DNA of 64,000 nt, from positions 124,001 through 188,000 of the forward strand of contig NZ_FLQR01000010.1 in assembly GCF_900078385.1 (NCBI RefSeq), written 5' to 3'. The stretch is from an uncultured Microbacterium sp. (GTDB lineage Bacteria > Actinomycetota > Actinomycetes > Actinomycetales > Microbacteriaceae). The position numbers and the translations under genes are program-made. The notes beneath the pieces were generated by a model that was given only the letters and a program-made list of their open reading frames with translations, had not been told where the DNA came from and ran no database searches. Shown piece by piece: positions 35,333 to 40,293 of the stretch (position 1 is its first letter; each line of letters opens with the position of its first letter).

Positions 35333-35489
35333 GGTTGCGCCTGCTTTCGTCAGTGAAGTTCAGTACGTGCGGGGCATCGGATCCGCCCACGCGCACACTC
35401 GACAAGGGTATCCCAGGTTTGCGCGCCGTACCCCGGCTCTCCGACCGCACGAAGGCATCCGACGATGCGGAACCGGCACGCAGAGTCGC

Positions 35490-35495
35490 TACCGT
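35490..35495 (+). promoter_or_regulatory. Leaderless-type -10 for guaB1
   Basis: TACCGT, 6 nt, ATG at 35502. Confidence 0.6.
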
Positions 35496-35501
35496 GGACT
35501 C

Positions 35502-36959
35502 ATGCAGTTCTCCGGAGAACAGCCCACCGTCGACCTGACGTATTCGGACGTGTTCCTCGTCCCCCGACATTCCGCCGTGACGAGTCGGCTCGACGTCGAT
35601 CTGTCACCGCACGACGGCACGGCGGCGACCATCCCGCTCGTCGCGTCGAACATGAACTCGGTCACGGGGCCGCGGCTCGCCGCGGCGCTGGCACGCCGCG
35701 GCGGACTCGGCGTCCTGCCGCAGGACATGCCGCTGCAGGACCTCGACGCGGCCATCCGCTGGGTCAAGGACCAGCCGGTGCCCTGGGACACGCCCCTCGT
35801 GCTGCCCCCGGACGCGACGGTGGCGGAGGCCGCCGGGCTGCTGCCGCCCGCGGGTCCGCACGCGATCGTCGTCGCCGCGGCGGGCCGTGCCGGCATCCAC
35901 ATCGACGACGTGCTCGGGATCGTGTCGGCGTCGCGGCTCGCGACCGCCCTGCCCGATGCCCGGCTCGGCGACCTGACGCGGGGGCGCGCGCCCTCCATCG
36001 ACGCGGACGACGTCGAGGACGCGCGACACGCCTTCGACCTCCTCGTCGACGCCGGCGCGGAGACCGTCTGCGTCCTGCACCAGGGTCACCTCGTCGGGAC
36101 GCTCTCGCAGCGCAGCGCGCTGCGCTCGACGCTGTACCGCCCCGCGGTCGACGCCGACGGCCGGCTCATCGTCGCGGCCGCCGTGGGGATCAACGGCGAC
36201 GTGGCGGCGAAGGCGCAGGCGCTCGCCGCGGCCGGCGTCGACGTCCTCGTCGTCGACACGGCGCACGGCCACCAGGACGGGATGCTGCGGGCGCTCCGCG
36301 CGGTCGCCGACCTGCAGCTGGACATCCCCATCGCGGCGGGCAACGTCGTCACGACCGAGGGCGTGCAGGACCTCGTCGCCGCCGGCGCCTCGATCCTCAA
36401 GGTCGGCGTGGGACCCGGCGCCATGTGCACGACGCGCATGATGACGGCCGTGGGTCGTCCCCAGTTCTCCGCCGTGCTGGAGACCGCCGACGCCTCCGCC
36501 GAACTGGGCGCGCACGTCTGGGCGGACGGCGGAGTCCGCTACCCGCGCGACGTCGCGCTCGCGCTCGCCGCAGGGGCCGCGTCCGTCATGATCGGCTCGT
36601 GGTTCGCCGGCACGATCGAGTCGCCGGGCCCGCTGCAGATCGACGAGACCGGCCGTGTCTTCAAGGAATCGTGGGGGATGGCCTCGACGAAGGCGGTGCA
36701 CGGCCGCTTCGGGCGTCTGGACCCCTACGAGCGGGCACGCAAGGAGCTCTTCGCGGAGGGCATCTCGTCGTCGCGCATCTACCTGGACCCGCTCCGGCCG
36801 AGCGTCGAGGACCTCATCGACATGATCACCTCGGGCGTCCGGTCGTCGTTCACGTACGCGGGGGCGGCGACGGTGCCCGAATTCCACGAGCGGGCCACGG
36901 TCGGCCTGCAGTCGGCGGCCGGCTACGAGGAGGGCAAGGCGCTGCCGGTCAGCTGGTAG
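35502..36959 (+). CDS. guaB1: GuaB1-family IMPDH-related protein / GMP reductase
   Basis: 485 aa TIM-barrel enzyme with an inserted CBS pair (about 95-215). The catalytic loop VGVGPGAMCTTRMM carries Cys309, replacing the usual GPGSIC of IMP dehydrogenase. The N-terminus LTYSDVFLVPRHSAVTSRLDVDL and AAGNVVTTEGVQDLVAAGA are typical. The actinobacterial GuaB1 group is not the main IMPDH and is associated with GMP reductase activity (purine salvage). ATG at 35502 is supported by the leaderless box; the track start at 35217 lies across the kgd promoter. Confidence 0.9.
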   Translation: MQFSGEQPTVDLTYSDVFLVPRHSAVTSRLDVDLSPHDGTAATIPLVASNMNSVTGPRLAAALARRGGLGVLPQDMPLQDLDAAIRWVKDQPVPWDTPLVLPPDATVAEAAGLLPPAGPHAIVVAAAGRAGIHIDDVLGIVSASRLATALPDARLGDLTRGRAPSIDADDVEDARHAFDLLVDAGAETVCVLHQGHLVGTLSQRSALRSTLYRPAVDADGRLIVAAAVGINGDVAAKAQALAAAGVDVLVVDTAHGHQDGMLRALRAVADLQLDIPIAAGNVVTTEGVQDLVAAGASILKVGVGPGAMCTTRMMTAVGRPQFSAVLETADASAELGAHVWADGGVRYPRDVALALAAGAASVMIGSWFAGTIESPGPLQIDETGRVFKESWGMASTKAVHGRFGRLDPYERARKELFAEGISSSRIYLDPLRPSVEDLIDMITSGVRSSFTYAGAATVPEFHERATVGLQSAAGYEEGKALPVSW

Positions 36960-37569
36960 CCGCCTCGCGCTCCCGGTCCTCCCACTCCCGGCGCAGCACG
37001 CCCATGACGACGGAGTCGTAGCGCTCACCCCGCACCTCGCGGGCGTCGCGGAAACGCGCCTCCTCCGTGAAGCCGAGGCGGCGCCCGACGGCCAGCATCC
37101 GCTCGTTGCCGGACCACGTCGAGTAGTCGAGGCGGACGGCATCCGTCGTGCGGAAGAGGTAATCGGTCCAGATGTGCAGCGCCGCGGTGCCGATGCCGCG
37201 CCCGCGGAGCACGGGGTCGTAGACGGTGAGGCCCATGCGCCGCCAGTCCGACGCCTGCGACTCCCAATGCCACGAGACGGTGCCGAGGATCGTCGCCGGG
37301 TCCTCGGCGGCGGCGATCACGGCGCGCTGCAGCGGCGAGTGCGCGGCGTACGACCCGTCGGCGAGCCCCGTCGCCAGCCGTGCGCACGCGGCGTCGATCT
37401 GCCCGGCGTCGAGCTTCGCGAAGTAGGGGCCGTCCCAGCGGTGCCAGTCCTGGTCGGGCTGCAGCCAGCGCCGATAGGCGTCGATGTCCTCCGCCACGAA
37501 GGGACGCACCCGGATCCCGCCGCGATCCTCGCCGACTCCGCCAGCTCCGCCCGCTCCGCTGCCACTCAC
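36949..37569 (-). CDS. GNAT family N-acetyltransferase (RimJ-like)
   Basis: About 206 aa. After a Gly-rich lead, the GNAT fold runs from IRVRPFVAEDIDAYRRW to the end, with acetyl-CoA loop VLRGRGIGTAALHIWTDYLF and C-terminal GNERMLAVGRRLGFTEEARFRDAREVRGERYDSVVMGVL, the RimJ/RimL-like pattern. Substrate unknown. The start is uncertain: GTG at 37569 excludes the ORF-track N-terminus, which reads through the palindromic repeat at 37594-37657. Its 3' end overlaps guaB1 by 11 nt, convergent. Confidence 0.82.
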   Translation of the reverse strand: MSGSGAGGAGGVGEDRGGIRVRPFVAEDIDAYRRWLQPDQDWHRWDGPYFAKLDAGQIDAACARLATGLADGSYAAHSPLQRAVIAAAEDPATILGTVSWHWESQASDWRRMGLTVYDPVLRGRGIGTAALHIWTDYLFRTTDAVRLDYSTWSGNERMLAVGRRLGFTEEARFRDAREVRGERYDSVVMGVLRREWEDREREAATS

Positions 37570-37593
37570 CACGCCCCCATTCTGCCCGTCGCC

Positions 37594-37657
37594 CGCGCTG
37601 CCGAAAGCGGCACGCGCTGCGGAACGTTCGACCGCGCGTGCCGCTTTCGGCCGCGCG
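37594..37657. repeat. Palindromic repeat element, copy 1
   Basis: A perfect 17-bp stem (37601-37617 with 37634-37650; ccgaaagcggcacgcgc) with a 16-base loop containing gaacgttc, flanked by cgcgctg and ccgcgcg. A second copy lies at 38741-38804 in the same orientation; the two differ at only a handful of positions. It is non-coding and probably genome-wide, like a REP or small palindromic mobile element. Confidence 0.88.
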
Positions 37658-37664
37658 GATGCCG

Positions 37665-38634
37665 TCACCGCAGGACGGGGTCGCCGGCGCGCGGGCGCGG
37701 CTTGCTGCTGCGCAGGCCGTCCGCGGTCAGGACGTCGTAGACCCGCTGAGGGTGGTCCGCGTCGGTGGCCTCGAGACGGGAGAATCCCCGCACCTCCCGG
37801 CGGATCTCGTTCTCGCGGGTCTTCTCCTCGATGACGATCGCGGCCGGCGTCCGGCCGGCGCTGAACTCCGGGCTCAGGTACTTTCCGCGGCCGTCGATCT
37901 CGAGCCAGTGATCGGCCTCCGGGAAGTACAGATCACCGAAGACGAGGCGGCCGCTGCGCAGCCGGCGGCGCTCCTGCAGCCGCGGGTGCGGGAAGCCGAG
38001 CGCGATCACCAGCAGCCGCATCTGCGTCTCACGGGCATTGGCGGCCAGCGACGCGGATGCCGCGACCGCGCCGCGCACGCGCATCCCCGCGCACGGGCTC
38101 CGTGTCGAGCAGTGCGAGGATGTCCTCCGTCGTCGCGAGAGCCCCGCCGCCCCGGCCCGTCCACAGCGCCTGGTCGATCGCGGACACGCCGCGGGCGAAC
38201 GGCAGGATGCGCGCCAGGTCGAGAGCGGTCTGCGCGGGCGTCGTGACCTCGTGCGCACCGAACGGCACCCGCGCGACCCGCTCGAGCCCCAGCGCTCGCC
38301 GACGGATCGCTCCGCCGGAGCGTCCGCCCGTGGCCCGTGCAATCGTGACGTCGACGGCATCCGGCCACGGGCCGAGCAGATCGATGCCCCACACGGCCGC
38401 AGCGGCGAAGTGCGACACCACCGCGGGCGCATCGAGCCGGGCGAGCACCTCCTCGACGCGCAGGCGGTGACGTCGGATGCCGCTCAGCGCGCGCCATTCG
38501 GGGCTGCTCACGAACACGCCCGGGGCGATCCGCGTCCAGGTGCGCTCGCGCAGGTGACGCCGGACGCGCCGGTAGTCGGGGTGGGCGATCAGCTCCCGCC
38601 GACGCGCCACCAGGATCTCGGGGACGGGCATCAT
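37665..38634 (-). pseudogene. Frameshifted AbiEi-antitoxin-domain / DUF559-like nuclease-fold protein
   Basis: Two overlapping frames make one protein of ~320 aa. The first (start ATG 38634 or 38631, MPVPEILVARRRELIAH) has an AbiEi-like HTH start (RERTWTRIAPGVFVSS) and a middle domain to about 38075. The second frame supplies MRLLVIALGFPHPRLQERRR, then a Vsr/DUF559-type PD-(D/E)XK-like core (FGDLYFPEADHWLEIDGRGKY, AIVIEEKTREN) to the stop at 37665. The two frames switch around 38050-38090, in a GC-run, so a one-base indel is likely. Could be a true mutation or a sequencing error; a pair of genes is less likely because neither half is complete. It is bracketed by the palindromic repeats. Confidence 0.72.
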
Positions 38635-38740
38635 GCCTCCCACCGTGACCGGCCCCGCCCGCCACGCGCGGCCGGACCCGCGCACCCGTGGACCACCGGG
38701 CCATCGCGCGTCCCGGGGAGGAGGCGCCGCGACGCCGATG

Positions 38741-38804
38741 CGCGCTGTCGAAAACGGCACGCGCTGCGGAAGGTTCGACCGCGTGTGCCGCTTTCGACCG
38801 CGCG
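38741..38804. repeat. Palindromic repeat element, copy 2
   Basis: Same element as copy 1: tcgaaaacggcacgcgc (38748-38764) against gcgtgtgccgctttcga (38781-38797), 16-base loop, same flanks. The outer pair changed from C-G to T-A on both sides, a compensatory change; two inner positions became wobble or mismatch. It lies 107 nt upstream of the frameshifted gene start. Confidence 0.86.
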
Positions 38805-38893: not shown

Positions 38894-38962
38894 ATGGACG
38901 ACCCTCCCAGTAGACGCTCGCCCCACCGACCCTCCTCGCTGCGGAGCGGGGGTGATGCGTGA
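38894..38962 (+). CDS. Putative 22-aa leader peptide, acidic/proline then arginine-rich
   Basis: Not in the ORF track. ATG at 38894, about 4 nt after the predicted transcription start; 22 codons begin MDDPPSRRSP and end at TGA 38960-38962, which overlaps the ATG of the CNNM gene (tgatg). The acidic-proline opening followed by Arg resembles the MgtL leader of enterobacteria, where such starts destabilise ribosomes at low magnesium. The resemblance is in character, not homology. It could also just couple translation to the next gene. Confidence 0.5.
   Translation: MDDPPSRRSPHRPSSLRSGGDA
38933..38952 (+). promoter_or_regulatory. Hairpin within leader ORF near CNNM start
   Basis: tcctcgct pairs with agcggggg through a GCGG loop (8 pairs, two G-U in RNA), covering the purine-rich sequence just before the CNNM start. 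Ribosome movement on the leader ORF would open it. Confidence 0.4.
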
Positions 38963-40293
38963 TGGATTACGTCATGTTGGGCGTGGGGCTGCTCCTGACC
39001 ATCGGCACCGGTCTCTTCGTCGCCAGCGAGTTCGCGCTCGTCAACCTCGACCGCGCCGACCTCGAAGCGCGGCAGGCCGCCGGTGAATCCCGGCTCGCGC
39101 GGACCATCGCGGCTCTGCGGATCACCTCGACCCACCTCTCCAGTGCGCAGCTCGGTATCACGCTGACGACGCTGCTCACCGGCTACACGATGGAGCCCGC
39201 CATCTCGAACCTGCTCCGGCCGGTCTTCGAGGGCTGGGGGATGCCGGACTCGGCGTCCCGTCCCATCGCGACGATCATCGGCGTCGCGATCGCGACCGTC
39301 TTCTCGATGATCCTCGGCGAGCTGGTGCCCAAGAACTTCGCGCTCGCGATCCCGCGCCAGACGGCGAAGCTCGTGATGCCGTTCCAGGTGGCGTTCACCA
39401 CGGTGTTCCGTCCGGCCATCACCGTGCTCAACGGCAGCGCGAACGGCGTGCTCCGCGCCGTCGGCATCGAGCCGAAGGAGGAGCTGTCCGGCGCGCGCAC
39501 CGCCGAGGAGCTGTCGAGCCTGGTCCGCCGCTCCGCCAGTGCGGGTCTGCTCGAGAAGGACACCGCGTCGCTCCTGGACCGCACCCTGAACTTCGCCCGC
39601 CTGACCACGGCCGACGTCATGACGCCGCGCCCCAGCATCCACGCCGTGGCAGCGGGCGACAGCGTCGAGGACGTCGTGCAGCTCGCGCGCCGCACCGGCC
39701 ACAGTCGCTTCCCGGTCTACGACGAGTCGATGGACGACATCACCGGCATCGTGCACCTCAAGCAGGCCGTCAGCGTGCCGCGCGATCGCCGCGCCGACGT
39801 TCCGGCCGCCGCGATCGCGGAGGAGCCGCTGCGGGTCCCGGAGGCCGTGCACCTGGATGCCCTGATGTCCGAGCTCCGTGCCCGGGGGTACCAGATGGCC
39901 ATCGTCGTCGACGAGTACGGCGGGACCGCCGGCGTCGTCACCCTCGAGGACCTCGTGGAGGAGATCGTCGGCGAGGTGCTCGACGAGCACGACCGCAGTC
40001 GCGCCGGCATCGTGCGCGGCCGCGAGGGCAGCGTCGTCTTCCCCGGCGACCTCCGGCCGGACGAACTGCTCGACCGCACCGGCATCCGCGTCCCCGAGGG
40101 CGACGTCTACGACACGATCGGCGGATTCCTCATGGCCACGCTCGAGCGGATCCCGACCGTCGGCGACGCCGTCGAGCTCGAGGACGGCACGCTGCGCGTC
40201 CAGCGCATGGACGGCCGCCGTGTCGACCGGGTCCGCTTCCTGCCCACGCCGCTCCCGGGCGGCGCCGACGAGACGGGCGGTGAGACCCGATGA
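38962..40293 (+). CDS. CNNM/CorC-type membrane protein with CBS pair and CorC_HlyC domain
   Basis: 443 aa. The CNNM (DUF21) membrane domain covers about 1-190 (helices such as [24 protein letters not shown], and the motif [15 protein letters not shown]), followed by two CBS repeats ([48 protein letters not shown]) and the CorC_HlyC domain ([22 protein letters not shown]). Family members move or regulate Mg2+/Co2+ or other divalent ions. ATG at 38962 overlaps the leader stop; an adjacent in-frame GTG at 38959 is possible. Coupled to the next gene by a 4-nt overlap. Confidence 0.92.

Follow-up and report, generated by a model that had tools for sequence, protein, structure and literature searches.

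Palindromes and genes at the locus

Two 64-nt palindromes, 92% identical, in the same orientation and 1147 nt apart (37594–37657 versus 38741–38804), lie in the window, which is the whole 64,000-nt stretch of DNA analyzed. Their bracketing of a frameshifted gene, described in an earlier note on this DNA, is real, and none of 100 dinucleotide-shuffled versions of the window contained a matching pair of this kind. As also claimed there, the pair encloses a single gene only. The features of the locus are as follows:

35489–36959 (start approximate), plus strand: IMP dehydrogenase (guaB-like) gene, a conserved neighbor on the opposite side from the CNNM gene
36949–37580 (start approximate), minus strand: GNAT acetyltransferase gene, adjoining palindrome copy 1
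37594–37657, no strand: palindrome copy 1, about 7 bp past the stop codon of the AbiEi-nuclease gene
37595–37606 and 37614–37625: direct boxes of copy 1, 19 bp apart
37626–37637 and 37645–37656: inverted boxes of copy 1
37665–38634, minus strand: frameshifted gene with AbiEi-like and Vsr-like nuclease-fold parts (identified by intact homologues, fold, and AbiEi HMMs)
38065–38090, minus strand: frameshift stretch of that gene, where the frames of its N-part and C-part overlap
38741–38804, no strand: palindrome copy 2, about 107 bp ahead of the gene start
38742–38753, 38761–38772, 38773–38784, and 38792–38803: the four boxes of copy 2
38959–40293, plus strand: CNNM-type transporter gene, a conserved neighbor that fixes the locus

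By DNA folding, each copy forms one long hairpin (z = -7.9 and -3.8). The hairpin of the earlier note was recovered, but not its 17-bp stem, as the supposed loop partly pairs with itself and the stem is longer. The change of the outer pair from C-G to T-A between the two copies was confirmed. Among 27 family members, double changes in the inner stem occupied 24 cells versus 14.5 in 500 shuffles (0/500 for covariation) and also exceeded slid controls, an excess that is inflated by relatedness. Hairpins are able to act as terminators. Comparison with Rfam gave only chance miRNA-type matches for the palindromes.

The N-part frame of the gene (38065–38622) corresponds to profile positions 7–193, and the C-part frame (37689–38090) to positions 185–319. 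In the sister species M. saccharophilum (G156), the gene is frameshifted elsewhere, near residue 153, and the simplest reading is that the two breaks are independent events.

AbiEi homology was detected in the N-terminal two thirds of the protein, both by PADLOC HMMs (E to 1e-16) and by a fold match of the model (pLDDT 81) to AbiEi 6y8q (E = 6e-5), which bears out the assignment made earlier. The C-terminal part gave weak fold matches to Vsr, AbaSI, and PvuRts1I (E > 0.1), and in 17 divergent proteins the residues E204, D236, E247xD249G, K253, and E272K273 are invariant. Nuclease-like residues are conserved in a protein homologous to AbiEi, and the most likely architecture is an AbiEi-type DNA-binding part fused to a putative Vsr-like PD-(D/E)XK nuclease part. 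The label DUF559 stays a resemblance, as Pfam returned no significant family match for the protein, PF04480 included; a PDB sequence search with the protein gave nothing useful. The invariant E-D-ExDG-K pattern and the weak fold matches recall the Vsr, DUF559-like, and PvuRts1I-AbaSI PD-(D/E)XK nucleases, from which the protein differs by the Pfam result, its fusion to AbiEi, and its tie to palindromes. With the AbiE type IV toxin–antitoxin systems it shares the AbiEi part, and AbiEi too binds inverted repeats. Unlike those systems, however, the window-lineage gene has no adjoining AbiEii toxin gene (its neighbors are IMPDH, GNAT, and CNNM), it carries the extra C-terminal domain, and the matching repeats lie on both sides of the gene and are dispersed.

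Association of the gene family with palindromes

The gene family was found in 94 of the 150 Microbacteriaceae genomes sampled (61 of 85 genera); no homologues were found in phages, and plasmids gave one weak match. The association was measured by local alignment of the 400 nt upstream against the 400 nt downstream of each gene, with a cut-off score of ≥18. This score was reached by 48/68 close homologues (P ~1e-19; four loci appear under two ids each, which makes the effective n slightly lower), 15/20 distant Microbacterium paralogues (P ~1e-11), and 23/30 family-wide loci, versus 1/137 unrelated ORFs of the same genus. The null set consisted of random intervals and unrelated ORFs, since the paralogues first meant as controls proved to be members. 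About a quarter of the family genes had no matching flanks by this test. The link between gene and repeat that the earlier note had proposed thus extends across the family: the palindromes are scattered, yet strongly enriched beside these genes. A resident gene bracketed by a dispersed palindrome family, which is a feature of RAYT/REP systems, is likewise found in the AbiEi-nuclease genes.

Five copies of the palindrome (type 1) were detected by a covariance model in the 3.14-Mb genome to which the window belongs (G000). The three outside the window sit between other genes, two of them in the gaps between an epimerase gene and argC and between genes for an ABC transporter and a DUF6807-like protein (names from ORF reading). 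The gene of this lineage is now broken, and its five palindromes are probably relics. When the inner sequence was left free, the pattern matched 8/198 congeners, and the reversed control matched none. The genome of the window also carries a second member of the gene family, about 30% identical (G000:C11:199729–200586), which is an open frame without stops and is bracketed by an unrelated type 2 palindrome, GAGAAACCAC..., present in 15 copies; in G156, type 2 has about 20 copies, as a count of distinct places. These copies were counted by BLAST, the strict pattern having matched one copy only.

The second gene apparently ends within its downstream palindrome, with the stop codon in the first box (CAG TGA GAAACCAC; L084 1010–1030, minus strand), an arrangement reported for some GTAG REPs. 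In G156, three near-identical type 2 palindromes stand in tandem, in units of about 170–215 bp (L253, G156:C2:217312–217761), and this trio sits where the synteny of G156:C2 with G000:C11 is broken.

Twelve gene-flanking palindromes, joined by N spacers, were also searched in their 12 genomes, from eight genera. Among the approximately 150 of 351 matches listed, all were to the genome's own gene-flanking palindrome. Match totals ranged from 2 to 74 per genome at about two per copy (up to ~37 copies), and several copies were present in 11 of the 12 genomes; in the remaining one, G530, the search at E < 1e-4 gave no dispersed copies.

For types 1 and 2 in G000 and G156 together, 17 of 22 dispersed copies were intergenic, versus 16% at random; positions came from a simple gene caller, whose over-long ORFs probably account for some of the "genic" copies, and the 22 may include one site twice. 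Nine of the 17 were in convergent, seven in tandem, and one in divergent gaps. Occupancy differed between the two genomes at no fewer than two palindrome sites, and the one readable comparison of an occupied with an empty site (~120 bp) showed neither a target-site duplication nor a clean boundary. Scattered, lineage-specific, and different between sister species, the copies fit the "palindrome-dispersal system" suggested from the window alone.

Across 84 loci, palindromes were alike mainly when protein identity exceeded about 60%; among 2220 protein pairs below 40% identity, essentially none were alike at a palindrome score of 14, and none at 18. One layout is nevertheless common to unrelated sequences, namely box, short spacer, box, and then the inverted pair. 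Of the offsets from 8 to 35 nt, 19 nt gave the highest self-match in each of the three gene sets (6.3, 8.9, and 7.0, versus ~3 at other offsets). Such constant spacing in unrelated palindromes suggests a protein that recognizes two boxes on a fixed 19-bp frame.

A candidate gene-palindrome system and its alternatives

Gene and repeat are partners by association on both flanks, dispersal, lineage specificity, co-divergence, and 19-bp geometry. The most economical inference from these sequences is that the protein would bind, cleave, and copy the repeat, and to a single system of this kind, made up of gene and palindromes, we give a probability of roughly two in three. The protein would bind its own palindrome at all four boxes, a direct pair spaced by 19 bp plus the mirror image of that pair, and would cut or nick DNA at the palindrome or at a target, which would let repair or recombination write new copies into intergenic DNA. 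The gene would stay between two anchor copies and be inherited vertically, while the palindromes would multiply, drift, and co-diverge with it.

The main rival is a regulon. On this view the protein would act as a regulator that binds the palindromes as operators, those beside its own gene serving autoregulation. AbiEi proteins autoregulate through inverted repeats, the AbiEi antitoxins doing so at their own promoter (PMC7319586, PMC3985639), and this precedent, together with the homology to AbiEi, the copy upstream of the gene, and a box geometry suggestive of protein binding, gives the idea some substance. We nevertheless consider it unlikely, as it does not account for the second copy downstream of the gene, for dispersed copies that favor convergent and tandem 3' sites (1/17 divergent), or for copies that differ between sister species, and a regulator has no need of conserved nuclease residues.

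The earlier note had also proposed a small mobile cassette, that is, the gene and two palindromes moving as a unit. Same-orientation palindromes bracketing the gene would agree with this, as would one genome (G028) with exactly one palindrome and no gene, whose flanks match those of M. kyungheense (left 49/58, right 83/95 identical). However, the window gene lineage stays at the guaB-CNNM locus in about 10 further species. The homologues there are accompanied by palindromes or by arrays of them, in a variant specific to each lineage (CGCTACAG..CTGTAGCG in M. lacticum, tandem palindromic arrays in M. ulmi), so that gene-bearing relatives do carry flanking copies, contrary to one outcome that would have counted against the link. 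In another genome (G018), a remnant of the 3' end of the gene, read by eye, is kept at the locus, which points to ancestral presence followed by loss, and recombination between the two palindrome copies accounts for the state of G028. In pairs of near-identical species, palindrome copies at the gene had been neither gained nor lost. The cassette is improbable: as judged from synteny, the gene here has been passed down without moving and is decaying, and it is the palindromes that disperse.

Elsewhere, a single genome (G525) has three family genes with identical scores (C1:34247, C1:3150367, and C2:33428), perhaps duplicated recently, perhaps repeated in the assembly, and the gene itself may have moved there. 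Half-palindrome units amplified in tandem were seen beside the gene in G014 (L100 2800–3360 and 4400–4620; period ~18–19 nt), in M. ulmi (L108 3209–4000 and 4910–6160; longer period), and in G156 (L094 3423–3626), as if the repeat had grown locally.

Least probable, and ranked low, are ordinary terminators, for which the ability of such hairpins to terminate would speak but of which genome-specific sequences with 19-bp box spacing would not be expected, and an unlinked mobilizer of MITE-like palindromes (a RAYT or IS transposase, for example), with the gene between copies by chance: REPs likewise favor 3' sites (PMC3733652), but own-palindrome matches across 12 genomes, palindrome-gene co-divergence, and the presence of two such pairs of gene and palindrome within a single genome would be unexpected from an unlinked enzyme.

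Comparison with known repeats and implications

The system in which the protein would spread its own palindrome resembles REP/REPIN elements and their RAYT (TnpA-REP), where one resident gene is bracketed by palindromes and related, lineage-specific copies lie between genes, mostly near 3' ends (PMC3116915, PMC2817692, PMC3733652). It is an analogue and not a relative. The HuH motif is not conserved in the 17 members (two chance occurrences), which have no invariant His, and the protein, AbiEi plus PD-(D/E)XK-like in make-up, is not a RAYT; the palindromes, moreover, are about 60–90 bp long, with four boxes spaced 19 bp apart within each arm. CGTC-tagged REPs are also dispersed palindromes, reported without a known dedicated transposase, but they are tagged, 20–40 bp long, and mainly alphaproteobacterial, and differ in sequence and size (PMC3733652).

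On balance, we favor an undescribed intragenomic replicator of Actinobacteria, in which a resident AbiEi-nuclease gene would maintain and spread its own palindrome, with boxes co-evolving on a fixed 19-bp frame, in parallel to REPIN-RAYT. A search of the open-access literature found no account of an AbiEi-nuclease/palindrome system, and on that basis it could be counted as a separate kind, less so if all gene-plus-palindrome systems are regarded as one.

If this reading is true, bacteria would have at least two unrelated kinds of gene with dispersed palindromes, and the origin and upkeep of REP-like repeats would become a comparative question. The repeats of Microbacteriaceae would gain a candidate maker, and the family would offer many natural pairs of protein and DNA box on one geometry for the study of protein-site co-evolution.
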